Origin: Halorubrum rubrum
Lineage (GTDB): Archaea; Halobacteriota; Halobacteria; Halobacteriales; Haloferacaceae
Direction of reading: 5' to 3'
DNA length: 64,000 bases
Assembly (NCBI RefSeq): GCF_024494685.1
Contig: NZ_JANHDM010000001.1
Location: forward strand, 124,001-188,000
Positions 1,313-13,129 of the stretch are shown here, in pieces. Both the position numbers and the translations under genes were made by a program. The notes beneath the pieces are model-generated. The model had not been told where the DNA came from. It did not search any database and saw nothing but the letters and a program-made list of their open reading frames with translations. How positions within the stretch are numbered: position 1 is the first letter of the stretch; each line of letters starts with the position of its first letter.

Positions 1313-1453
1313 ATGGACACCGAAGAAGGCGCAGAAACGACCTCTCCGCTTGACGACGTGATGGAGGACATCCGGCGGGAACTGGTTCGGCGGGTCGCGG
1401 CGGACGACCGAGATGCGAACCGAGAGGTCTACGACGCCCTCGAAGACGAATAA
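1313..1453 (+). CDS. Small acidic protein, candidate antitoxin partner of Doc
   Basis: A 46-codon ORF, ATG 1313 to TAA 1451-1453, 25 nt after the toxin stop. The sequence is strongly acidic, with a predicted helix VMEDIRRELVRRVAADDR and the tail REVYDALEDE. The acidic bias and codon choice look like real haloarchaeal coding sequence. No DNA-binding domain is visible. In most Phd-Doc pairs the antitoxin gene comes first, so this order would be reversed. Function as antitoxin is inference from position only. Confidence 0.5.
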   Translation: MDTEEGAETTSPLDDVMEDIRRELVRRVAADDRDANREVYDALEDE

Positions 1454-1700
1454 TCGGAACTGCTGCAATTCGCCGAGTTGACTGCCCTCTACAGATCTAA
1501 TCGCTCGGTGCAGGCCGTGTAGTTAGCACAACGGCACTCCGTCTTACCGAGAACTGTCACAAACAGCGTTCTCGGTCCAGACGGAATATCCGCTGCCCGG
1601 TACCCCCAACTGCGCTGGTCGAGTTGCTCAGCCGCACGAACGAGCCGTGAGACGGTACGTGAACAAAATGACTATGAGCGCTCGATGAACAGTGGTCATC

Positions 1701-2150
1701 ATGCGCCGTCGTGCCCTCCTCTCGGCCGCTGTTGGCGTGACCGTAGGTAGCGTGGGGTGCCTCGCATCGATACGCGATTCCAACCGCCAGATGGCCCAGC
1801 TCGGCTGGTTCGGCGTCCATAACGTCGATCCAGAGTCCAGCCATACCTTCACGCTCATTGTTGAGAGAGATGGCAATGTCGTTCACGAATCATCGCATGA
1901 AGTCGATACAGCAGAAGACCATGACCCCGGCGTAGCAAGTGATGGTGCCGTCGCTGAGTGCACGTGGGGGGGCACTGCCGGTGATTACTCAGTTCGTGTT
2001 CGTAGGAACGGAGAAGAAGAGACCGAGAGATCAATCAGCGCGTTTGCGGCAGAAAGAGGAGCTAACTGCGTGGTTGCGGACGCCGAATATCAAAACTACG
2101 ATGCCACCTCTGAGTTCCTCGACGGGAAGGCCTGTCCATTTCCCTTCTAG
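1701..2150 (+). CDS. Secreted lipoprotein, haloarchaeal, unknown function
   Basis: About 149 aa from ATG 1701 (MRRRALLSAAVGVTVGSVGC); a GTG three codons upstream is less likely. The N-terminus has an Arg cluster, a hydrophobic stretch and a lipobox ending in C20, so the protein is probably exported and lipid-anchored. The mature part has a beta-rich pattern (HTFTLIVERDGNVVHESSHEV; GDYSVRVRRNGEEETERS) like the small immunoglobulin-like domains of many haloarchaeal lipoproteins, and further cysteines near C89, C124 and C146. Codon use is more AT-rich than the core genes. No neighbour suggests a role. Confidence 0.65.
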   Translation: MRRRALLSAAVGVTVGSVGCLASIRDSNRQMAQLGWFGVHNVDPESSHTFTLIVERDGNVVHESSHEVDTAEDHDPGVASDGAVAECTWGGTAGDYSVRVRRNGEEETERSISAFAAERGANCVVADAEYQNYDATSEFLDGKACPFPF

Positions 2151-2312
2151 AAGCCTGTGACAACGACGACTACGTTAGACGGTGTTCCTTTTTACCCAAG
2201 AGTGACGCACTCTGAGTACCGTACTTACCGCAGAGGATTCTGCTCCGAATCTAGTCTCGGTCAAGATACGCGTCTTCTATTCCTCGGGCGATATCAACAA
2301 TATCAACAATCT

Positions 2313-2448
2313 CGCTGTATTATCACTTCAGATACAGTTATTCTTCTTGATCAATTGGGTGCCAATCGAAGTCGTGTTGCCGTTCACAACTGGGTACGGA
2401 AAGCCGATCTACAGCCAGCTGACGGTGAGAGTCCGGATCGCGTTGCGG
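2313..2448 (+). pseudogene. Decayed IS6-family transposase fragment
   Basis: The translation around 2340-2448 contains VAVHNWVRKADLQPADG and SPDRVAV, matching the conserved stretch before the first catalytic Asp of haloarchaeal IS6-family transposases (VHNWVHKADLQP...VAVDE). Just upstream the expected LSLSDTV can be restored only by adding a base near 2329, so the reading frame is broken. Homology stops abruptly at 2448, before the DDE residues. What follows (ttgttgaaatcc onward) resembles the end of another haloarchaeal IS, suggesting an insertion into the transposase followed by deletion. The 121-codon frame spanning this region is not a gene. Confidence 0.6.
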
Positions 2449-2616
2449 TGGCCTTGTTGAAATCCTTGGTCGCTGATAGTTCGTCGAGGCCGTGCTACAT
2501 ACAGAGCGCGTGTCGCGTGTGACGCCTTCTCAGTGTTTGGAGATTGACCAGCACAAGTTGAAACGAAAGGTGTGTGGAAAGACCTCTCACCGTCTCTGCG
2601 CTTAGCCCGCCGGCTA

Positions 2617-3042
2617 TTACTCGCCACGGAGGATTCCCCGGATCGCACTGACAGTCTCTCTGAACGCGCTGACGTCCATGGAGTCGGTGGTGAAGAGCAC
2701 GCCGGAATCGCCCTCAAGCGCCCTGACGACAAATCCGTCGTCGTGGAATCGAACGGTGAAGTTGTACGGTCCGATATCTGGACCGTCGTCACTGTGTGCG
2801 ATTTCGGTCCGCGCCGACCGTTCCGCAAACCCCACCCGTTCGAGTCGGACCAGTTGCGCCTTCCGGTCTCTAGCGGCCTCATCAGACGGATAGAGGTCCT
2901 GCCGTACGTACAACAGATCGAACGACGAGGGGGTGAAGTACACAATGCTCCGGAGCGTGTCCCCGAGGCTGGTTCGGGTGGCACTCAGAATGCTGTCGGC
3001 CATCCCCTCGCTGATCCCCGTATCGAACGTTTCTGGTCTCAT
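2617..3042 (-). CDS. Conserved haloarchaeal protein (DUF7522-like)
   Basis: 141 aa from ATG 3042 (MRPETFDTGISEGMADSIL). An upstream in-frame ATG adds 29 basic residues that do not fit. It begins with an amphipathic helix, then SIVYFTPSSFDLLYVRQDLY, a charged helix, and a beta-rich half NFTVRFHDDGFVVRALEGDSGVLFTTD. I recognise this as a family common in haloarchaea, which I believe is catalogued as DUF7522, with no known function. It is soluble, without cysteines or membrane segments. It stands alone between IS debris and the zinc-ribbon genes, which point the other way. Confidence 0.65.
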   Translation of the reverse strand: MRPETFDTGISEGMADSILSATRTSLGDTLRSIVYFTPSSFDLLYVRQDLYPSDEAARDRKAQLVRLERVGFAERSARTEIAHSDDGPDIGPYNFTVRFHDDGFVVRALEGDSGVLFTTDSMDVSAFRETVSAIRGILRGE

Positions 3043-3257
3043 GCGATGTAATAACGCGCCCGGTGATGATTGGGACATCGATAGCCACGTGCGAGACTCA
3101 ACTGTGGCATTTGACGAGTGCCGTCGCATACACTGTCTTGCGTTTCGAGAACAGTCCCGTGATGGTGTAACTTGGCGGTAGCATATTCTCCGAACCTGTG
3201 AAAAGTGATGTCGCTAGGGAGCGAAGAGCTACGGTACCTCCGGCCCAACAGTAGTGT

Positions 3258-3563
3258 ATGCCCGAAGACAGTGAGGCAGCGTCTGCGGATCGAGTACTCA
3301 AACCAGGACGGCGAGTGTACGATGAGGCTGGCCGGGTGATCGGAGTCATCCAGGCTATCACGGACATCGGTGTTGAGGTTAACACCGACAGCGACGTCGA
3401 GAGGCTCTCGCTCCGGCAGTCTCCCAGCGTGAACCTCGGTGAAGGGTATCTCGTGTGGAGGTGTAGTGAGTGTGGTGAGTTGGGAGACATCAACCAGATC
3501 CCCGATCACTGTCCGAGCTGTAGGGCCAGCAAAGACACCCTCTACGCCTACTTAGAGGATTAA
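3258..3563 (+). CDS. Rubredoxin-like zinc-ribbon protein (DUF7130-like)
   Basis: 101 aa. The N-terminal half, with GRRVYDEAGRVIGVIQAITDIGVEV, looks like a small beta-barrel. The C-terminal half carries a CxxC...CxxC zinc ribbon, WRCSECGELGDINQIPDHCPSC, of rubredoxin/rubrerythrin type, which binds Zn or Fe. Probably a haloarchaeal small stress or redox protein; the substrate is unknown. It is followed after only 4 nt by a second tiny zinc-finger gene, so the two are very likely co-transcribed. Confidence 0.75.
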   Translation: MPEDSEAASADRVLKPGRRVYDEAGRVIGVIQAITDIGVEVNTDSDVERLSLRQSPSVNLGEGYLVWRCSECGELGDINQIPDHCPSCRASKDTLYAYLED

Positions 3564-3567
3564 GTGT

Positions 3568-3762
3568 ATGTCTGAAAATCACCCTCCACGCGATTCGCCG
3601 GAGTGGGACAGCCCCGACCTGTGTCCGTTCTGTGGTGTTGCACTGTCGGACGGCGGAATCGGATTTATCGACCACATAGCGGACGCCGCTGTGTGCGAAG
3701 AGCGATTCGACGCCTGGCGGGAGCAGATTCGGGACGATATCGGTGGGGAGTGGGGTGGTTAG
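3568..3762 (+). CDS. Small C2HC-type zinc-finger protein (DUF7501-like)
   Basis: 64 aa with LCPFCG followed by a spaced H35 and C43 (FIDHIADAAVCEERF), a four-ligand CCHC zinc site. Proteins of this size with one zinc finger are common in haloarchaea and mostly uncharacterised. It starts 4 nt after the rubredoxin-like gene, suggesting one mRNA and perhaps a shared process. The TGTGTG-rich codon use is more relaxed than in the core genome. Confidence 0.7.
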   Translation: MSENHPPRDSPEWDSPDLCPFCGVALSDGGIGFIDHIADAAVCEERFDAWREQIRDDIGGEWGG

Positions 3763-3916
3763 CTGTGGTTTGCCTGCTAAATCCACCCTCTGTATCTCGC
3801 ACGCCGATCCTATCAGCTCTTAAGAATTTCAACAGAGCCAAATCAAATTAGGCAGCCAAAGTCGATTTATAAATGACCAGCCGCCGTCTGTCAGATTTGG
3901 ATCGTTCGAAAATCAA

Positions 3917-3936
3917 GCGGGCGCGACGGGACTTGA
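3917..3936. repeat. attL, left copy of the attachment repeat
   Basis: 15 identical bases (3917-3931) plus ttga after one mismatch match the tRNA-Arg 3' end at 7991-8010. Directly after the core the sequence forms a perfect 8-bp palindrome with a 2-nt centre, acgggact-tg-agtcccgt (3926-3943), where the tRNA has its T-arm. The integrase stop codon is only 39 bp away. Confidence 0.8.
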
Positions 3937-3981
3937 GTCCCGTAATTATCGTGTAGTAATCGGCTTGAATTTGTATGACAC

Positions 3982-5025
3982 TCATTGTTGTATAATTCTC
4001 CATCGGCGATCTGCTTTCTCGCGCTCCGAGGCGCGATCGTAGTGCTTGTCGAGAACGTCCTCGCTCGCGTTGAGCTGGTCCGAAACGACACCTCGAGGAA
4101 CCCCGTCGTTCCGGTACTTCGTCACCCGCGCCTTCCGGGCGTCGTGCGGTGACCGAGCGGACGGGCACCCGCTCACGTGACGGAACGTCGCGAACTTACA
4201 CGACTCCGGATCCTCGTCGTGCGGGCACTCCTTTCCGATGAAACACGGGCGAGTCCATCGGTAGAACGCCTTCCGGACGGTTCCGGCCGCGATCCGGCCC
4301 GCGTCGGTCGTCACCAGCGGGTTTCGTCCGTACTCGTCGACGGTGTCCGTCCGCGGACCGTCGATGTAATCCTGTAGGATCTGGGCGACCCGGCGGCTGA
4401 TACGATTGACTCGCTCGCTCGCGGCGTCGTTCTTGAGCGGCGTACCCGTTTCCGGGCGGTGAGCGAACTCGATCGAGGGCTTGTTTCCCTCCAGCTCGAG
4501 ATCCTGAAGATCCAGCGATCGTACGGCACCCAACCGAGCACCCGTATGCCAGATCAACGCCCATACGACGTGGTCGCGGCTCGCGTACTCGTACCGCGAG
4601 AGGTACTCGATGATGTCTGCCGCTCGCTCCGGCCGTAGATACGAGTCGCTCACCTCGTCGTCGCGGGTGAGCTTCACGAGCGGCACCTTTTCGTACAGAT
4701 CCGACGGGACCGCCTCGATCTCCCCGCAGAACCTGAGGAACGACCGCAACGTGGAGAGGTTCGAGTGAAGCGTCTTCTTCGCGAGTTCATCGACCTTGCT
4801 CTTGCTGTATCTTCCCTCCCGACGCCAGATCCGGTATTCGTAGAGGTCGCGGCCGGACAACTGGTTCATGTTGTCGACAGCTCCCTCCTCGCGACACCAC
4901 TCGACGAACGGCCGGAGTTCGCTCCGGTGGGTAGTCTGGGTCCACTCGGCGCGGTCTTCTTTCATCTTTTCGAGATGCATCTCGACCGCCCGCTCCGGAG
5001 GGATCGGTTCGAGGTCGTCACTCAT
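3982..5025 (-). CDS. Tyrosine recombinase/integrase of the tRNA-Arg element
   Basis: 347 aa. Residues 1-115 form a core-binding SAM-like domain (TQTTHRSELRPFVEWCREEG). The catalytic domain shows R164 in TGARLGAVRSL, H294-x-x-R297 in SPHDARK, and the nucleophile Y329 in DKHYDRAS. Four cysteines (C261, C267, C276, C287) lie between box I and box II and may bind zinc. It should catalyse site-specific recombination between the attP and the tRNA-Arg gene. The start ATG overlaps by 4 nt the stop of the 40-aa gene upstream, so translation is coupled. Confidence 0.92.
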   Translation of the reverse strand: MSDDLEPIPPERAVEMHLEKMKEDRAEWTQTTHRSELRPFVEWCREEGAVDNMNQLSGRDLYEYRIWRREGRYSKSKVDELAKKTLHSNLSTLRSFLRFCGEIEAVPSDLYEKVPLVKLTRDDEVSDSYLRPERAADIIEYLSRYEYASRDHVVWALIWHTGARLGAVRSLDLQDLELEGNKPSIEFAHRPETGTPLKNDAASERVNRISRRVAQILQDYIDGPRTDTVDEYGRNPLVTTDAGRIAAGTVRKAFYRWTRPCFIGKECPHDEDPESCKFATFRHVSGCPSARSPHDARKARVTKYRNDGVPRGVVSDQLNASEDVLDKHYDRASEREKADRRWRIIQQ

Positions 5026-5144
5026 TCCGATCCCTCCGTCTTCCCGTCACCGTCGTCGTCCTCATCGTTCTCGTCATCCTCGTCGTCGTACATCGCGAGC
5101 TGCTCCGCGATCCGCCGGGCGTGTCCTCGCGCGTCGTCGGTCAC
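5022..5144 (-). CDS. 40-aa acidic protein coupled to integrase
   Basis: Starts at GTG 5144-5142, overlapping the zinc-finger gene stop by 4 nt (GTGA), and its TGA overlaps the integrase ATG (ATGA). The protein begins TDDARGHARRIAEQLAMYDD and continues with an almost pure D/E tract before ending KTEGSE. Double overlap with real genes on both sides, and helix-then-acidic-tail composition, argue for translation. It may be a recombination directionality or DNA-mimic-like partner of the integrase, but that is only a guess from position. Confidence 0.65.
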   Translation of the reverse strand: MTDDARGHARRIAEQLAMYDDEDDENDEDDDGDGKTEGSE

Positions 5145-5398
5145 GCCGGCCCCTCTCCGTCGAGATCGCGATCGTAAGGGCCGACCTGGGTCACGAGTCG
5201 CACCCGATCGCGTGCGAGGAGTGCGCCCGTTTTCCGGTCGCTAAGCTCCTCGAAAACGCCGTCCACGTCGTCGTGAGCGGCGCACTTCTGACACCAGAAA
5301 TGGTGGTTCGTCGGCTCCCAGGAACGGTGCCCGCGAGGGCACACATACCGCCACCTGTCCTGCCGGTCTTCGATCCGCACGACTTCTTTCGAAACCAT
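5141..5398 (-). CDS. Small zinc-finger protein, first gene of integrase operon
   Basis: 85 aa from ATG 5398 (MVSKEVVRIEDRQDRWRYVC). A C-x2-GH and a C-x2-C pair (YVCPRGHRSWEPTNHHFWCQKC) form a likely zinc-binding knuckle. The rest is a charged helix (DDVDGVFEELSDRKTG) and a strand. Genes of this type often sit just upstream of integrases in haloarchaeal plasmids and proviruses. A long upstream extension to 5671 is rejected because it runs through the non-coding structured region. Stop and next start overlap as GTGA. Confidence 0.75.
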   Translation of the reverse strand: MVSKEVVRIEDRQDRWRYVCPRGHRSWEPTNHHFWCQKCAAHDDVDGVFEELSDRKTGALLARDRVRLVTQVGPYDRDLDGEGPA

Positions 5399-5556
5399 CG
5401 CCTCGGGTCGACGGACGGGGGTTAAAAAGAGCCGATCCAGACGTGCGGAGTGTAACTGAAAGTGGTCGGTTCCTGTGGTTGTGTTGCGGTTCCTCGATCG
5501 ATCGGGGATTTCAAACCCCGGCGCGTTGTGTCCGAACATGGCTTTCGTGGCCTTAG

Positions 5557-5654
5557 CACGGAAGCCCGCGCGGACCCGAGCCCCACCTCGGGGTCCGCTT
5601 TGATTCTGCGAGGGACCCACCGACGAGCGACGGGTCCGCGTGAGTGCTTCCGTG
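5557..5654. ncRNA. Candidate structured RNA or origin in integrative element
   Basis: Nested inverted repeats: an outer perfect 9-bp stem cacggaagc (5557-5565) with gcttccgtg (5646-5654), enclosing an 11-bp hairpin with one bulge (5570-5580 with 5587-5598, loop ccccac) and a 6-bp hairpin ggaccc/gggtcc (5613-5618 with 5632-5637). It lies in the 379-bp gene-free stretch between the divergent integrase and repressor operons. The form allows a three-way-junction RNA, or a replication origin or iteron-type site in DNA. Strand is not determined. Confidence 0.4.
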
Positions 5655-5683
5655 ATCTTCTCCAGGAACACCGCCGACTTAAC

Positions 5684-5766
5684 TGTAACCCATCAAATCG
5701 TGTAGTTACAAACACGGAAAGCTACTTGAACCGAACCGAACCGGTATCTGTTATATGAACCGGTAT
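5684..5766. promoter_or_regulatory. Operator repeats around the repressor promoter
   Basis: Two direct copies of gaaccggtat (5738-5747 and 5757-5766) flank a TATA-like ttatat (5751-5756), about 22 bp before the repressor ATG at 5778. Further upstream an inverted pair tgtaac (5684-5689) and gttaca (5705-5710) is spaced by 15 bp. A protein bound to the direct repeats would cover the TATA box, so autoregulation by the product of the next gene is likely. That is inference from geometry. Confidence 0.5.
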
Positions 5767-5777
5767 GACGCGGACGT

Positions 5778-6029
5778 ATGCGCCCTCGGGTGGAGTGGAT
5801 GAACCAGACGGACGATCGGGTCCTCGAGCTGCTCGCCGAGTCCGATCTCATCCTCACACCCGCCGTGATCGCGAAGAATCTCGAGTACACGCGAAACTGG
5901 GTATCCCGTCGGATCGGGAAACTCGAAGCCGCCGATCTCGTCGAACCGGTCGACGCCGGATACTACCGGATCACCGGCCGCGGTCGCGCCTACCTCGCGG
6001 GCGAACTCGACGCCGACGATCTCGAGTGA
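5778..6029 (+). CDS. PhiH1-like winged-helix repressor
   Basis: 83 aa, one winged-helix domain: a helix WMNQTDDRVLELLAESD, an HTH LTPAVIAKNLEYTRNWVSRRIGKLEAADLV, then a wing VDAGYYRITGRGRAYLAG. This is the standard form of the small MarR-like repressors of haloarchaeal proviruses, named after the phage PhiH1 repressor. It likely keeps the element quiet. The mRNA seems leaderless or nearly so, given a TATA-like box about 22 bp upstream. Its 3' end overlaps the convergent HTH gene by 40 bp. Confidence 0.85.
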   Translation: MRPRVEWMNQTDDRVLELLAESDLILTPAVIAKNLEYTRNWVSRRIGKLEAADLVEPVDAGYYRITGRGRAYLAGELDADDLE

Positions 6030-6829
6030 TCGGCGGACTGGCGTCTTCCCGTTCGTTGTGGGATCTGAAGCTCCCTCGCAGCGTCGGCCGAGATCGTGAT
6101 CCCGGTAGGACCGATCGACACTTCATCGGTCACACACTCCGTGATGAGCCGGTGGAGGTCGTCGAGGTATGAGTCGGGGCGTTCCTCTTGGATCCGCGTC
6201 GTGGCCTTCCCTTCGAGGTACACCCCACGGTGGGCGACGTATATCTCGACGAACCGACGGCGCGTCGGGGCCGGGCTCTCCCACACGACGGTAGGCACGG
6301 CGGAGAGTTCGGTCTTCGAGCCCTTCGGCGCGCCCATCGCGACGAGACACCGCCCGAGGACCGACGCGTCCGTGGCCGGATAGAGTTCTGTCGACCGGGA
6401 GTCGCTGTCGGCGTGGCGCGTCCGTGCGTCGACACCGACCGCTTCGAACGCCTCGGAGATCGCCGCAGGACCGATCCGCCGGCCGGACGACACCGCCGGA
6501 ACGAACACGTCGCTGACGGTCCCGCCCGCGAGGACGTGCGCGAGCAGCTCGACGAGCGCTGCCGCCACGCCCCCGTCCGGGTCGGGGTCGATCCACCCGT
6601 GATCGATCGCGGTCTGGATGCCGCGAACCGGGTCGGGCTTCCCGCCGTCGAGCCAGCCGCGGACGCGGCTCGGCGGGAGGTCGATGGCGTTCCCGACGCG
6701 AGTTCGGCCGTGGTTGGGGTGGTCGGCGGCGTACTCCCGAACGCGTCGGTAGTCGAGGACTTTCTCCCACGGGTCGGGGTACTCCCGGTCGCTGTAGGTC
6801 CGCGCGAGGGCCTGCGCCGTGGGGGACAT
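5990..6829 (-). CDS. HTH-containing element protein, unknown function
   Basis: 279 aa from ATG 6829 (MSPTAQALARTYSDREYPDPW); a start six codons earlier is possible. Residues around 30-60 (RRVREYAADHPNHGRTRVGNAIDLPPSRVRGWLDGGKP) form a helix-turn-helix. The rest is a mixed alpha/beta region with TRRRFVEIYVAHRGVYLEGKATTR, which resembles homing-endonuclease-like domains seen in related haloarchaeal plasmid proteins, but no catalytic motif is clear. It is divergent from the pilin gene and convergent, with 40 bp overlap, with the repressor. Confidence 0.7.
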   Translation of the reverse strand: MSPTAQALARTYSDREYPDPWEKVLDYRRVREYAADHPNHGRTRVGNAIDLPPSRVRGWLDGGKPDPVRGIQTAIDHGWIDPDPDGGVAAALVELLAHVLAGGTVSDVFVPAVSSGRRIGPAAISEAFEAVGVDARTRHADSDSRSTELYPATDASVLGRCLVAMGAPKGSKTELSAVPTVVWESPAPTRRRFVEIYVAHRGVYLEGKATTRIQEERPDSYLDDLHRLITECVTDEVSIGPTGITISADAARELQIPQRTGRRQSADHSRSSASSSPAR

Positions 6830-7001
6830 ACACGTGATTCCGCGCAAACAGGATTAGAAGATGCCGGCCCAATTTTCAGTCCTGATACGTACGCCATTAA
6901 GTACATATACCGGATCCGCTTCCGTTCAGATAGCCAGCAACCGACGAACGCGGATCGGGGGGTTCTCGTAACCGCGTTCTCGGCCCCAGCTGGGTTCAAT
7001 C

Positions 7002-7490
7002 ATGAAACCACGCAACCTGTTCAAAGCGGACGACCGCGGTGTGAGTCCCGTAATCGGGGTCATCCTGATGGTCGCGATTACCGTCATCCTGGCCGCCGTC
7101 ATCGGGACGTTCGTGCTCGGACTCGGCGACTCGCTCGGCGACAGTCAGCCGACAGCACAACTGAGTGCCAGTATTGATGATGATGATAGTGATAACAAGT
7201 CGGTTGTTATTGATCACGACGGAGGCGATTCAATCGATTCTGAAACACTACGTGTGATTGTCGAAGACGAAGATAATAATCAAGTTGAGGCCACCGACCA
7301 ATTCAGCGAGTCATTCGGTGTCGGAGACTCTGAATCTGGTTCGTTTGTAGCTAATGGTTCAGACGGAACTACCCTTCAGGTCCGTGTTATACATGTTCCC
7401 AGTGATTCGATTATTCTTGATCGCTCGATTGAGGTCTCCGACATAGATAATGTTGATGAGGACGAGGACGACGGTATTGATTTCTCCTAA
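7002..7490 (+). CDS. Type IV pilin-like secreted protein
   Basis: 162 aa. The N-terminus FKADDRGVSPVIGVILMVAITVILAAVIGTFVLGL is the archaeal pilin signal (class III, N-terminal domain PF07790): a positive start, a prepilin peptidase site before VSP, and a hydrophobic assembly helix. The mature domain is short, beta-rich and extremely acidic (DDDDSDNKS; NVDEDEDDGIDF). Pilins assemble into surface filaments for adhesion. The gene is clearly AT-richer than its neighbours (runs such as gatgatgatgatag), a sign of separate origin. Finding a pilin inside an integrative element suggests surface modification of the host. Confidence 0.88.
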   Translation: MKPRNLFKADDRGVSPVIGVILMVAITVILAAVIGTFVLGLGDSLGDSQPTAQLSASIDDDDSDNKSVVIDHDGGDSIDSETLRVIVEDEDNNQVEATDQFSESFGVGDSESGSFVANGSDGTTLQVRVIHVPSDSIILDRSIEVSDIDNVDEDEDDGIDFS

Positions 7491-7500
7491 GAATTAGTTT

Positions 7501-7761
7501 TTACCGCCACCGGCTTTTTATTCGCGTTCGGTACTGTAACCCAACGACTGACGTATTACACAACTCCTGAATAGTTACTGGGTCGTACTCGTCGCGAGCG
7601 TTCTGGATATTCTCTTTACTCTCCACCAGGTGCGCGAGCGCCGCGTCGATCACGACGCTCATCGGCGGGTCGTCGTCGGGACCGCTCGCCACGATCTCGC
7701 TCGCCTTTTCGAGCTGACGCTCTCGTTCGTCGGAGGGCTTCAGGCTGGTTCGACGGCTCAT
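7501..7761 (-). CDS. Small conserved element protein (DUF7386-like)
   Basis: 86 aa. The N-terminus SRRTSLKPSDERERQLEKASEIV followed by PPMSVVIDAALAHLVESKENI has the length and helix pattern of ribbon-helix-helix regulators (strand, then two helices). I believe this family is listed as DUF7386 and is frequent in haloarchaeal mobile elements. It converges with the pilin gene, 10 bp apart. A DNA-binding role is likely but not proven; the strand residues are T4-S5-L6-K7. Confidence 0.6.
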   Translation of the reverse strand: MSRRTSLKPSDERERQLEKASEIVASGPDDDPPMSVVIDAALAHLVESKENIQNARDEYDPVTIQELCNTSVVGLQYRTRIKSRWR

Positions 7762-7990
7762 TCATATACCTCACCGTATGTACGGGGGTCGCGATCCCGT
7801 CGATCTCGGGTGACTGAACGCGTTGAAGTGGTCTGGGCGGATCGCCCGCGATCGCGACGACGGCCACCCGCAACCCAACCGAGTTCTATGTACTTCGGCA
7901 GTCTTCGAGGACCGCTTCATTCGGTGTATTCGGGAGTATCGATGCCTCTACGGTGCGTTCGCTGTTGGTCGGTGATCGTCCCGCGAGAAG

Positions 7991-8010
7991 GCGGGCGCGA
8001 CGGGATTTGA
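7991..8010. repeat. attR, right attachment repeat within tRNA-Arg
   Basis: Identical to attL over 15 bp and 19 of 20 overall. It covers the acceptor 3' strand and part of the T-arm of tRNA-Arg, so the tRNA stays intact after integration. Confidence 0.8.
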
Positions 8011-8064
8011 ACCCGCGGCATCTTGGTCCGGAACCAAGTGCTCTGTCCGCTGAGCTACGCGCCC
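7992..8064 (-). tRNA. tRNA-Arg (anticodon CCG)
   Basis: Read on the minus strand, a 7-bp acceptor stem GGGCGCG/CGCGCCC (8064-8058 with 7999-7993) and discriminator G at 7992. The D-arm is GCTC...GAGC, the anticodon stem CTTGG/CCAAG with loop TTCCGGA gives anticodon CCG, and the T-loop is TTCAAAT. Length 73 nt, no intron, CCA not encoded. It is the integration target of the 4.1-kb element. Confidence 0.95.
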
Positions 8065-8114
8065 TCACGAGGTGGTCGTCCGGGCGAGCGTTTAACGCTT
8101 CTGACTCTCGTTTC

Positions 8115-8723
8115 TCAGTCGACGAACAGCCCGTCGACGATGGTCTCGATCAGCCGCTCTTCGACCTCTTCGTACTCGGAGACGTGGAGGACGGAGATGG
8201 GGGAGTCCTGTGCGCGGGTGACGAAGACCAACGAGCGGAACAGCCCGTTTATCAGGTCGGGGTCGTCGTAGCGGACCTCGTCCATCGCCGCCCAGCGGCT
8301 GGCGTAGGGGAGTTCGCCCTCGCGGGGGTCGGATCCGATCGACTCTCGGTCCTCCTCGGAGAGCTGGTCGTGTAGCTGCCGGAGTTCGCCCCCGACGATC
8401 AGTCGGGAGGCGAGCGGGTTCGACCGGACCTCCCGAAACGTGGTGTGGAGCATCGTCCGCACTTCCTCGCGTGGCGTCTCGGCCTCCGATATCGCCGCTT
8501 CGATGTGCGCCTCGATCCGCTCCTGTTCGGCGTGGAGCACCGCCGCATACAGCGTCTCCTTCGAATCGAAGAACTGGTAGAACGTGCTGGTGCCGATGCC
8601 GACCGCCTCGGTGACGTCCTTGATCCGGGTGCGGTCGAAGCCGAACCGGGCGAACAGCTCGCGACCGTTCTCGACGAGCTGTGACCGGATCCGGTCGCGC
8701 TCGGACTCGGAGAACCGACTCAT
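8115..8723 (-). CDS. TetR/AcrR family repressor
   Basis: 202 aa from ATG 8723 (MSRFSESERDRIRSQLVENG). The N-terminal HTH is typical: ENGRELFARFGFDRTRIKDVTEAVGIGTSTFYQFFDSKETLYAAV (residues about 18-62). The C-terminal helical domain would bind a ligand. It is divergent from the envelope/RND operon starting at 8960, so it most likely controls that exporter and itself. The longer frame to 8801 adds an unnatural basic leader. Confidence 0.9.
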   Translation of the reverse strand: MSRFSESERDRIRSQLVENGRELFARFGFDRTRIKDVTEAVGIGTSTFYQFFDSKETLYAAVLHAEQERIEAHIEAAISEAETPREEVRTMLHTTFREVRSNPLASRLIVGGELRQLHDQLSEEDRESIGSDPREGELPYASRWAAMDEVRYDDPDLINGLFRSLVFVTRAQDSPISVLHVSEYEEVEERLIETIVDGLFVD

Positions 8724-8959
8724 TGGTCTTCTCTCGGGTGGTGTCTTCGGTGGCGTATGCCTTTGCTCATGGCGGCAATACGAACTCAAAAACAAAGGCA
8801 TTATTGATTCGTAGATTCACGTACGGGTATGAGACGGACACGGGACCACACCGGAGGTCGACCGAAACGCGTCGGTTCCCGCACGGATCGACCGGGCGAT
8901 CGAACGGCCTCGAACCGGCCGGGGCGGCACCGCTCGCCCGCCGTCGGTCGGAGGGATAG

Positions 8960-10642
8960 ATGAACGCGCGGTCGGTCCTCGTCGCGCTCGTGTCGGTGAC
9001 GCTGTTGACGAGCGGGACGGCCGGCCTCGCCGTCGCGGCGACGACGGGCGGGGCGGGCGGGACTAGTGGGGGAGTCGGCGACGCCACGGCTCCGACGACG
9101 ACCCCCCAGCAGTCCGAGGGACTGCTCCGCGGCTCTCCGGAACTGTCGGTCAGCACGTCGGACCCGACCCTCGATCCGGGCGAGGTCAACACGCTCCCGC
9201 TTCAGATCACCAACGACGGCGACCTGGACCTCGGCACCTCGTCGTCGCGGGCGGTGGTCACGACCGCGCGAAACGTCCGCGTCGAGGCGGACGCCGAGGA
9301 GACGCCACTTTCGGTCGAGACCGGGACGCTCGCGATCGGCTCCGTCACGGAGAACCGGCCGGGCGAGGCACCGATCGCCGTGAGCGTCCCCGAGGACGCC
9401 GCGGAGGGGACCTACACGATCGACGTCGAGGTGAAGTACTCCTACACCTACCAGCAGTCGGGCGGGGTTACCTACGACCGCGACGAGACGCTCTCGACCG
9501 AGGTCGACGTCGAGGTCGACGAGGACGCGCGCTTCGAGATCACGAACGCGACGACCGACGCGAAGGTCGGCGAGGAGGGCGTCCTCGAGGCGGAGGTGCG
9601 CAACGTCGGGGCGGACGGCGCGCGCGACCTCTCGGTGGCCATGGCGTCGTCGAGTCCCCAGGTCGGATTCGGCGGGGCCACGAGCGACACGGCGCAGATC
9701 GACGCGCTCGCGCCGAACGAGACCGCGACCGTCCGCTACGACGTCGGGTTCACGCCGGGCGCATCGGTGCGGGAGTACGTCCTCGACGGGACCGTCCAGT
9801 TCGAGACGCCGGAGGGCTACGCGCGCGTCGACGAGGACCCGTCGGTCGGCGTGACGCCGCGGGGAGAACAGCGGTTCAGCGTCGGCGACGTGGAGGCGGA
9901 CCTCTACGTCGGCGAGCAGGGCGACCTGTACGGGACGGTGACGAACGAGGGGCCGGACCCGGCGCGCAACGTCGCCGTCCAGTTCGCCGAGGAGTCGCCG
10001 AACGTGATCCCGCGGGAGTCGTCGGTCGCGGTCGGGACGCTCGAGGCGGGCGAGTCCGGGTCGTTCCGGCTCCCGATCGACGTCGGCGGCGAGGCGGAAC
10101 CGATCGATCGAACCTCCGACGTCGTCGTCCAGTACCGCAACGAGGAGAACGAACGGCGGGCCTACGAGGACCTCGAACTGCTGTACACGGTCGAGCCGCA
10201 GCGAGACCAGTTCGGGATCGCCGTCGAGACGCGCGAGATCGAAGTCGGCGGGCAGGTCGATCTGGCCGTCGAGGTGACGAACGAGCTGGACGAGCCGGTC
10301 ACGGACGTGGAGGCGCGGCTGTTCGCGGACAGCCCGCTCGACAGCGAAGACGACGAGGCGTTCGCGTCGACGCTGGATCCCGGCGAGTCGACCACGATGA
10401 CGTTCGACCTGTCGGCGTCCGCGTCCGGGACCGCGAAGACGTACCCCGTCTCGTTCGACTTCCGGTACGACGACGCCGACGGCGACAGCCAGCTCTCGGA
10501 CACGACCCGTGTGCCGATAACCGTCGTCGAGGCCGAGGAGCGCTCCCCGCTGTCGGGGATCGGCACCCTCCCGCTCGTGCTCGGCGTCCTCGCCGCGCTC
10601 GCCGTCCTCGGGGGCGCCCTCTACGTCACACAGAGAGAATAG
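8960..10642 (+). CDS. COG1361-type S-layer-like membrane-anchored protein
   Basis: 560 aa with a Sec signal peptide (residues 1-27, LVALVSVTLLTSGTAGLAVAA), three or more CARDB-like immunoglobulin repeats (for example PTLDPGEVNTLPLQITNDGD; DAKVGEEGVLEAEVRNVGADG; EIEVGGQVDLAVEVTNELDE), and one C-terminal transmembrane helix (TLPLVLGVLAALAVLGGALYV). Such proteins lie outside the membrane, anchored by the last helix. The next gene, an RND permease, starts right after the stop codon, so this is probably its external partner, playing the part of a periplasmic adaptor in an organism without an outer membrane. Confidence 0.85.
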   Translation: MNARSVLVALVSVTLLTSGTAGLAVAATTGGAGGTSGGVGDATAPTTTPQQSEGLLRGSPELSVSTSDPTLDPGEVNTLPLQITNDGDLDLGTSSSRAVVTTARNVRVEADAEETPLSVETGTLAIGSVTENRPGEAPIAVSVPEDAAEGTYTIDVEVKYSYTYQQSGGVTYDRDETLSTEVDVEVDEDARFEITNATTDAKVGEEGVLEAEVRNVGADGARDLSVAMASSSPQVGFGGATSDTAQIDALAPNETATVRYDVGFTPGASVREYVLDGTVQFETPEGYARVDEDPSVGVTPRGEQRFSVGDVEADLYVGEQGDLYGTVTNEGPDPARNVAVQFAEESPNVIPRESSVAVGTLEAGESGSFRLPIDVGGEAEPIDRTSDVVVQYRNEENERRAYEDLELLYTVEPQRDQFGIAVETREIEVGGQVDLAVEVTNELDEPVTDVEARLFADSPLDSEDDEAFASTLDPGESTTMTFDLSASASGTAKTYPVSFDFRYDDADGDSQLSDTTRVPITVVEAEERSPLSGIGTLPLVLGVLAALAVLGGALYVTQRE

Positions 10643-13129
10643 ATGACCCGAGCCGGACGGTGGATCGAGGACGCCACCACGCGACTCAACGAGGTCATCG
10701 TCTCGCGGCCGCGAGCGGTCGTCGTCGCGTTCCTGCTCGCGACCGCGGTCTTCGTCGGCGGGATGACCGCCGTCGAGACGCAGACGAACCCGACGGAGGG
10801 GTTCTCGGAGGACCTCCCCGAACAGGAGGCGCTCGACGCGATCGAAAGCGAGTTCGACGACCCCTTCGCGGCGGAGACGGAGACGACGCAGCTGATCCAC
10901 GAGGGTAACGACGTCCTCACCCGCGAGGAGACGCTGGTGATGTTGCGGCTGATAGAGCGGATCGACTCCCGAGAGGACCTCCACATGGAGTCTGCGAACG
11001 GGGCCGCGACGGCCATCGCTCGGGGGATCGATCCCTCGTCGGAGAGCCCGGCGGAGATGCGGGCGGCGGTCGCGGGCGCGACCGACTCCGAGTTCCGCCG
11101 GGTCGTCAGACGGCTGAGCGAGAATCCGGAGTTCTCCGTGAGCGTCTCGGACGACTTCAACCCGACCGAGGCGTCGGCCTCGACGACGATCACGGTGATC
11201 AGACACGACGTGCCGCAGGGGTTCGACGACCTCCAGTCGGTCCAGACCGAGATCCGGACGCTCGCGAACGACGAGCCCGCGGACGTCCGGACGTTCGGGA
11301 CCGGGATCATCAACGCCGAGACGGGACGCGTCATCGCCGACTCGCTGCTCATCGTGATGCCCGTCGTCGTCGTCCTGCTGTTGGGCTTTCTGGTGGTCGC
11401 GTATCGGGACCCGATCGACTTAGCGCTCGGGCTGTTCGCGCTGTTGATGACGCTCATCTGGACGTTCGGGTTCCTCGGCTTCTCGGGGATCCCGTTCGAC
11501 CAACAGCAGATCGCCGTGCCGGTGCTGCTTCTGGCGGTCGGGGTCGATTTCGGGATTCACTTCATCAACCGGTACCGCGAGGAGACCGTCCAGGGGTACG
11601 ACCCGATGCCGGCGATGCGGACCGCCGCGAACCAGCTCGCGATCGCGTTCGTCATCGTCACCGTGACCGCGGTGTTCGGGTTCGGCGCGAACGTGACCTC
11701 CGGACTCGACCCGATCCGGAACCTCGGGATCGTCTCGGCGGTCGGGATCGTCTTCACGTTCCTCATCTTCGGACTGTTCTTGCCGGCCGCCAAGCTCGAA
11801 CTCGACCGGCTCAGGGAGCGGTACGGCGTGCCCGAGTTCGGCACCACCCCGATCGCTTCCGAGGAGTCCGCGCTCGGTCGGCTGCTGGCCGTCTCCGTCG
11901 ACGTCGGCCAGCGCGCGCCGGCGGCGTTCGTCGTCCTCCTGCTTCTCACCGGCGGGGCGTTCGGCGCGTACGGCGCGGGCGTCGACACCACGTTCGAACA
12001 GGAGGACTTCCTCCCGCCGGAGGAGGAGCCGGGGTACGTCGCGTACATCCCCGAGCCGTTCGCGCCGAGCGAGTACACGGTCACCGAGACCCTGAGCCTG
12101 CTCGAGGACAGCTTCACGGCGAGCCAGGACGCGTCGCTCACGGTGTACGTCGAGGGACCGTTCGAGGAGGACCACGCGCTGGAGGCGCTCGCCGCGCCGA
12201 CCGACGACCCGCCCGACACGCTGGCGGTCGGCGAGGGCGGGCGCGCGGAGACGACGAGCATCGTGACCGTGATCCGGTCGCACGCCGAAAACGACGAGAA
12301 GTTCGCCGCGCTCGTCGCCCGCAACGACCTGGACGACGACGGGATCCCCGACCGGAACCTCGAGCGGATCTACGAGGAGCTGTTCGACTCGTCGGCGGGC
12401 GAACGGGCCGGCCGGTATCTCACCGACGATCGGCGCGGCGCGCAGGTCGAGTACACCGTCGAGAGCGGCGCGACCCAGAGCGAGATCTCCGCGGACGGCC
12501 GCGAGCAGGCGGACCGGTACCGCTACGCGGCGACCGCGACGGGACAGATCGTCGTCTTCGACGCGATCACGGCCATCATCTTCGACTCGGCGATCCAGGG
12601 GCTCGTGCTCGCCGTGGGCCTGAGCGGCGTGTTCCTCGTGATCACCTACGGCGTGTTGGAGGGGATGCCGATGCTCGGGATCGTGAACGTGTTCCCGATC
12701 ACGATCTCCGTCACGTCGCTCGTCGGGACCATGCGCTTTCTCGGATACCCGCTCAACGCGCTGACGGCGACGATCCTCTCCATCGCGATCGGGATCGGGA
12801 TCGCCTACTCGGTCCACATCACCGCCCGGTTCATCGACGAGTACCGCGAGAACGGCGACGTGGCGACGTCGCTGCGGACGACGCTCACGGGCACCGGCGG
12901 GGCGCTCGTCGGGAGCATGCTCACGACCGCGCTCGGGACCGGCGCGCTCGGGCTCGCGATCACGCCCGTGCTCGGCGACTTCGGCGTCCTGATCGCGATG
13001 AGCGTGTTCTACTCGTTCGTCATCTCCGTGATCGCGCTCCCGCCCGCGCTGTTCCTCTGGGACCGGATCCGGTCCGCCTCGTCGACCGCCGAGCCGGCCG
13101 ACCCCGTCGAGCCGACCGGCGAGGCGTGA
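10643..13129 (+). CDS. RND/MMPL superfamily exporter
   Basis: 828 aa with the RND duplicated architecture: TM1 (VVVAFLLATAVFVGGMTAV) then a large external loop, then TM2-6 (VMPVVVVLLLGFLVVAY through IVFTFLIFGLFLPAA), then TM7 (AAFVVLLLLTGGAFGAYG) with a second external loop and TM8-12 up to residue 810. Motifs PVLLLAVGVDFGIHFINRYREE and TILSIAIGIGIAYSVHITARF carry the acidic residues of TM4 and the matching region of TM10 in MMPL proteins. It is a proton- or ion-driven exporter of hydrophobic compounds or lipids. It begins at the base after the COG1361 gene stop. Confidence 0.9.
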   Translation: MTRAGRWIEDATTRLNEVIVSRPRAVVVAFLLATAVFVGGMTAVETQTNPTEGFSEDLPEQEALDAIESEFDDPFAAETETTQLIHEGNDVLTREETLVMLRLIERIDSREDLHMESANGAATAIARGIDPSSESPAEMRAAVAGATDSEFRRVVRRLSENPEFSVSVSDDFNPTEASASTTITVIRHDVPQGFDDLQSVQTEIRTLANDEPADVRTFGTGIINAETGRVIADSLLIVMPVVVVLLLGFLVVAYRDPIDLALGLFALLMTLIWTFGFLGFSGIPFDQQQIAVPVLLLAVGVDFGIHFINRYREETVQGYDPMPAMRTAANQLAIAFVIVTVTAVFGFGANVTSGLDPIRNLGIVSAVGIVFTFLIFGLFLPAAKLELDRLRERYGVPEFGTTPIASEESALGRLLAVSVDVGQRAPAAFVVLLLLTGGAFGAYGAGVDTTFEQEDFLPPEEEPGYVAYIPEPFAPSEYTVTETLSLLEDSFTASQDASLTVYVEGPFEEDHALEALAAPTDDPPDTLAVGEGGRAETTSIVTVIRSHAENDEKFAALVARNDLDDDGIPDRNLERIYEELFDSSAGERAGRYLTDDRRGAQVEYTVESGATQSEISADGREQADRYRYAATATGQIVVFDAITAIIFDSAIQGLVLAVGLSGVFLVITYGVLEGMPMLGIVNVFPITISVTSLVGTMRFLGYPLNALTATILSIAIGIGIAYSVHITARFIDEYRENGDVATSLRTTLTGTGGALVGSMLTTALGTGALGLAITPVLGDFGVLIAMSVFYSFVISVIALPPALFLWDRIRSASSTAEPADPVEPTGEA

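Follow-up and report, generated by a model that had tools for sequence, protein, structure and literature searches.

The element at tRNA-Arg(CCG)

The locus was examined within a 64-kb window (the whole stretch of DNA that was analyzed). Two exact copies of a 15-bp att core, GCGGGCGCGACGGGA, lie at 3917-3931 and 7991-8005, and no further exact copy is present elsewhere in the 64-kb window. The left copy (attL; 3917-3931, plus strand) is identical to the 3' end of tRNA-Arg(CCG), and the right copy (attR) is formed by the 3' end of that tRNA gene itself, which was located by ARAGORN at 7990-8064 on the minus strand. The element measures 4,089 bp from core to core. The initial annotation had reported recognizable attL and attR sites, an intact tRNA-Arg(CCG) and an integrase adjoining attL, and these reports hold: the repeat is exact, the tRNA gene is intact, and the integrase gene is intact and ends 50 bp from attL. 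The attL core occupies the same position beside int in two related loci (L065 and L066). Judged from sequence, the att match is not a chance one, because three further genomes of the genus have a full provirus at this tRNA, and because other genomes carry the chromosomal module beside this tRNA with no element between.

Seven genes were found in the element, all of them intact, rather than the eight counted initially. The gene nearest attL encodes a SNJ2-type tyrosine integrase of 347 aa (3982-5025, minus strand) that shares 91-94% amino acid identity with the integrases of proviruses at the same tRNA and 54-55% identity with those of SNJ2 and HHPV4. Its GARLG, HDAR and HYDR motifs are conserved, and dN/dS among close copies is ~0.06. 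A small acidic ORF of 40 aa, whose start codon is uncertain, occupies the orf2 position (5022-5144, minus strand) and has tblastn matches in L066, L069 and other loci. It is followed by orf3 (5141-5539, minus strand; 133 aa), a homolog of HRPV9 ORF4 with 82% identity over 129 aa; a shorter, 85-aa version of orf3 corresponds to an internal start, and the 133-aa frame was preferred. A winged-helix-turn-helix (HTH) regulator of the PhiH1-repressor-like type (5778-6029, plus strand; 83 aa) matches PHROG 2440 (E 7e-33) and is 98% identical to the copy in L068.

The remaining genes are orf279 (5990-6829, minus strand), a homolog of SNJ2 gp9 that matches PHROG 14115 (E 1e-92); an archaeal type IV pilin of 162 aa (7002-7490, plus strand) that matches PF07790 (E 2e-25) and TIGR02537 (E 7e-15) and bears out the pilin-like surface protein of the initial annotation; and a DUF7386 protein of 86 aa (7501-7761, minus strand; PF24111, E 3.5e-46) with 74% identity to its homolog, HRPV9 ORF8.

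An internally deleted provirus

The integrase, orf3, orf279 and DUF7386 proteins match those of the betapleolipoviruses SNJ2, HHPV4 and HRPV9. In three other genomes of the genus (the other members of which are nearly all named Halorubrum in their records), tRNA-Arg(CCG) carries a provirus with virion genes, NTPase and Rep (L065, L066 and L079), and provirus size at this site in relatives is ~14 kb. For L065 and L066 the sequence extends to the integrase end as well, and their integrases are 91% and 94% identical to that of the window. The SNJ2-type integrase of the window adjoins a tRNA-derived att site, and both arms of the element are collinear with complete proviruses.

The homologies of the two arms meet within a few bases of each other. 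Left-arm homology, upstream of DUF7386, was seen with five loci (L068, L070, L072, L074 and L075) and stops at window position 7913, and homology of the attR arm to L065 begins at 7919 (83.5% over 182 bp); a fourth genome (L088) confirms the attR arm, with homology from ~7917. A deletion junction was placed at 7911-7925 on the basis of these arm homologies. An interval of ~10 kb in L065, with the VPs, spike, NTPase, DUF7845 Rep and origin, has no counterpart in the window. Searches of the window by tblastn for Rep, spike and NTPase were negative and VP is also gone, such that the element does not have the spike, small VP, NTPase and DUF7845 Rep genes that a complete virus would carry. From the sequence of the two arms, it is almost certain that a single deletion took VP, spike, NTPase, Rep and ori from between the region upstream of DUF7386 and the attR arm. 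The initial annotation was correct that capsid and replication genes are missing, the cause being one internal deletion with its junction at ~7913-7919; its description of the element as complete fails, as ~10 kb is missing relative to proviruses at the same site.

The same junction was not found in a second genome in either viral_contigs or genome_contigs, sets from which near-identical records may be missing. No strict palindrome was detected near the junction; positions 7877-7913 match relatives on both strands by BLAST, as an imperfect inverted repeat would. The assembly of the host is a draft of 25 contigs, and there is no repeat at the junction that would hint at assembly collapse.

Unoccupied sites were also identified. 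In four genomes (G004, G047, G038 and G041), the short block that flanks attL of the full provirus in G003 sits directly against tRNA-Arg, the same Doc module comes next, and no provirus intervenes; across the genus, tRNA-Arg(CCG) is thus seen with a full provirus, with a gutted one or empty. No empty site was found that carries the left flank of the window itself (1453-3916). The window itself has a Doc/Fic-family gene (death-on-curing type) at 494-1457, with an att-like sequence, GGCGCGACGGG, at 646. The Doc module recurs in the genus, in ~20 genomes; several of these have it beside tRNA-Arg(CCG) together with more att-like copies, which suggests tandem accretion at this tRNA.

Taken as a whole, the element is very probably an internally deleted, HRPV9-like betapleolipovirus provirus, in which orf279 and the pilin may be host-kept cargo. 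As such, it provides a worked case of a chronic archaeal virus reduced to a small genomic island, for which the junction can be identified and full relatives exist at the same site.

Excision and replication

The initial annotation proposed that the element is a satellite, or a plasmid-derived element, dependent on a helper virus or on host replication. Excision may still work, given that the integrase motifs, the orf3 homolog and both att sites are intact; in SNJ2, integration depends critically on ORF2 and ORF3, according to work cited in PMC5867852. The excised circle would be without Rep and its origin, and would be lost unless it reintegrated. DUF7845 is the domain of RepSNJ2, a protein that was found to drive replication together with a downstream hairpin (PMC13107129). 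The origin hairpin motif, GTGTGGCTAAGGCCAC, was present in all of the full proviruses examined and is absent from the element, and no DUF7845 Rep or HRPV9-type NTPase was found anywhere in the host genome. One ori-like motif, GGCCTTAGC at 5549, lies within a stretch of 11 bases that matches the core of the Rep nick site in the full proviruses; the sequence differs at this position in relatives, and the motif was therefore treated as a chance match. By the known route, replication of the circle would not be expected.

For the element to be a functional satellite, its own integrase would have to excise it and a co-infecting betapleolipovirus would have to replicate and package it. The intact integrase, orf3 homolog, att sites and repressor are compatible with this, as is the abundance of pleolipoviruses in the genus. 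However, of the cis signals that a helper's replication could use, the known hairpin is missing (others might serve) and relatives do not share the sole 9-mer that resembles it, at 5549; the Rep and NTPase of the HRPV9 type are missing from the host genome; and the junction is confined to the window in the contig sets searched. As the circle would not be expected to replicate by the known route, a satellite is very unlikely, and a plasmid origin more remote still. The latter would require that a plasmid-derived integrative element shares its integrase with pleolipoviruses by chance; SNJ2-type integrases are indeed widespread (46 of 52 genomes) and occur beyond proviruses, but the proviruses at this tRNA are collinear with the element gene by gene, DUF7386 and both arms included, and this two-arm homology in practice refutes a plasmid derivation. 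What stands of the original proposal is a tRNA-integrated element that has neither virion nor replication genes; its genes are those of a betapleolipovirus.

An ~8-kb element at tRNA-Arg(TCG) in another genome (L071; G008:C37, ~2657-10706) has a 92% identical integrase, an HTH gene, an intact DUF7845 Rep and the origin hairpin (6201), and is without VP, spike, NTPase, orf279 and pilin; from its gene content it is a better candidate than the window element for a replicating capsidless derivative. The window's own genome has another SNJ2-type integrase (39% identical), which lies with an orf3 homolog at a contig end (L013; G000:C1:60-1058).

Predicted fold of orf279

An AlphaFold2 model of orf279, built from a 31-sequence alignment, had a pLDDT of 87. 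Residues ~85-261 of the model match LAGLIDADG proteins, namely the TliVMA intein (Z 16.7), I-DmoI (Z 12.3) and WhiA (Z 12.3). The predicted fold is like that of the LAGLIDADG homing endonucleases, whereas the acidic residue that ends each LAGLIDADG helix in those enzymes is missing from orf279: according to the alignments, with helix ends taken from the model, position 102 is Gly in most members and Cys in others, and position 201 is an invariant Arg. With both catalytic acids replaced and the nuclease residues lost, orf279 is predicted to be nuclease-dead, as judged by mapping the motifs onto the predicted model. The N-terminal part is predicted to be helical and, by its helix pattern, looks like a helix-turn-helix.

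A search of orf279 by sequence against solved structures returned nothing meaningful and no match to the solved WhiA chains, and neither single-protein nor profile searches of viral_contigs gave a confirmed match. WhiA is a LAGLIDADG-derived transcription factor without the LAGLIDADG catalytic acids, and its HTH is C-terminal; among the structure entries, it is found bound in an RNA polymerase promoter complex. It has the LAGLIDADG fold in common with orf279, and the catalytic acids are lost in both. Unlike WhiA, orf279 has its HTH-like region at the N-terminus and there is no detectable sequence homology between the two, so orf279 is not a WhiA in the sense of a LAGLIDADG domain followed by a C-terminal HTH. 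Orf279 probably controls the divergent pilin promoter. If so, archaea would have adapted a LAGLIDADG fold to regulation, as happened with WhiA in bacteria.

The pilin and the divergent region

The pilin has the Pilin_N signal and hydrophobic domain of an archaeal type IV pilin. Identity to relatives averages 89% over residues 1-50 and falls to an average of 30% over residues 51-162, a pattern that would be expected if the export and assembly part is conserved and the exposed part is variable.

A 172-bp region with the divergent promoters of orf279 and the pilin lies between the two genes (6830-7001). In an alignment of the intergenic regions of 28 loci, the conserved blocks are AATTTTCA, TACATA, CCAGC-AACC and GCTGGGTTCAA, and they include CCAGC and GCTGG in opposite orientation. 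The region is almost identical to positions 9377-9548 of a second remnant in the same genome (L012; contig C25, at tRNA-Ile). The orf279 proteins of the window and L012 are only ~60% identical, yet their intergenic regions are nearly identical, and recombination or gene conversion is a possible explanation.

Retention of orf279 and the pilin

The fate of the individual genes was followed in 24 partial loci, the window counted; these are the 26 non-full loci minus two (L068 and L077) that are full proviruses with Rep just beyond the fetched stretch. The pilin was intact in 23 of the 24 (scored on its conserved N-terminal part, the open frames listed all being at least 122 aa) and orf279 in 22. 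DUF7386 was intact in eight and fragmented in ten, Rep was intact in one, and an HRPV9-type NTPase in none. All but one of the loci were found by searching with orf279, which biases the presence of that gene; the bias weighs less on how often it is intact and on the counts for the pilin, which was not a search key. Among matches across the genus, orf279 was intact in ~45 of 54 and DUF7386 in ~20 of 47 (counted by eye; Fisher p 2.5e-5). In twelve loci of the genus the orf279-pilin pair was intact, and no viral gene was detected within the stretch that had been fetched.

Three loci at tRNA-Arg(TCG) (L082, L123 and L128) likely descend from one old remnant. The pN/pS of orf279 among them is 0.17-0.23, although low values in remnants may include selection that acted before the deletion. 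Two of these remnants (L082 at 14552 and L123 at 10730) have the origin hairpin but only ~80 aa of Rep.

The association with pilins extends to other genera, where 21 of 23 orf279 relatives directly adjoin a pilin gene, in operonic or divergent order (the 23 include L179 and L180, duplicates within one genome). In L184 the pilin is 1.4 kb from the orf279 relative, and L194 has a split orf279, with no pilin detected. The pilin background in sampled sequence was four in ~325 kb, one of which is the window's own.

Why the pair persists

The window element itself is a defective provirus, of a known kind, and the retained pair is the part worth study. The order of events would be as follows: a full HRPV9-like provirus at tRNA-Arg(CCG) underwent one internal deletion and left a 4.1-kb remnant, the selectable content of which would be orf279 and the pilin; orf279, which looks like a DNA-binding protein of the LAGLIDADG fold without the residues needed for cleavage, would control the divergent pilin promoter; and the pair would be preserved by hosts as lysogenic-conversion cargo, changing the pilus surface, as the other parts of the provirus decay. 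That the pair serves its hosts in this way is a tentative reading of its role, to which we give somewhat less than even weight. More tentatively still, orf279 and the pilin may constitute an undescribed mobile pilus-switch module, in which a nuclease-dead LAGLIDADG/HTH protein controls a pilin of hypervariable ectodomain, and which is carried between haloarchaea by betapleolipoviruses and kept by hosts after the virus decays. Such a module could benefit the host through, for example, changed adhesion or a block on pilus-dependent viruses, and the retained pair leads to a claim open to testing, that a working cassette for surface variation stays behind after a pleolipovirus is gone.

The simplest competing account is plain decay, in which the deletion is recent, the genes have not yet been broken, and orf279 and the pilin have no host role. 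The seven intact genes and the unique junction of the window are what would be expected of a recent event. Plain decay accounts for the window but not for the retention pattern: the pair is recurrently kept in older remnants in which other genes are broken or gone, pN/pS in remnants is low, and the linkage to pilins reaches beyond proviruses and beyond the genus. We regard it as unlikely. A similarly doubtful alternative is that orf279 acts on the pilin non-transcriptionally, or that the pair serves the virus, through, for instance, receptor masking or superinfection exclusion. The presence of the pair in full proviruses and in SNJ2 (as orf9 and, by tblastn position, orf10) fits a service to the virus, as does the highly variable ectodomain of the pilin. 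However, the pair also occurs in loci without detectable viral genes, and relatives of orf279 lie beside pilins in other genera, which implies that a purely viral role is insufficient.

Relation to known viruses

The gene order int-orf3-HTH-cargo-DUF7386 of the window is also that of HRPV9 (Betapleolipovirus) and of the proviruses L065 (in a record of Hrr. alkaliphilum) and L066 (in a record of Hrr. sodomense). In both proviruses, the tRNA-Arg(CCG) and att arms match those of the window as well. HRPV9, L065 and L066 differ from the window in holding the ~10 kb of virion genes, NTPase, Rep and ori that it is missing; no match to orf279 was found in the HRPV9 isolate. Natrinema virus SNJ2 is a complete 17-kb virus with a DUF7845 Rep (ORF19) and an origin (PMC13107129), both of which are missing from the window, and its regulatory region, unlike that of the window, holds hicBA and an Orc1/Cdc6 gene. 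SNJ2 nevertheless has the same type of integrase module as the window element, and its orf9 and orf10 correspond to the orf279-pilin pair.
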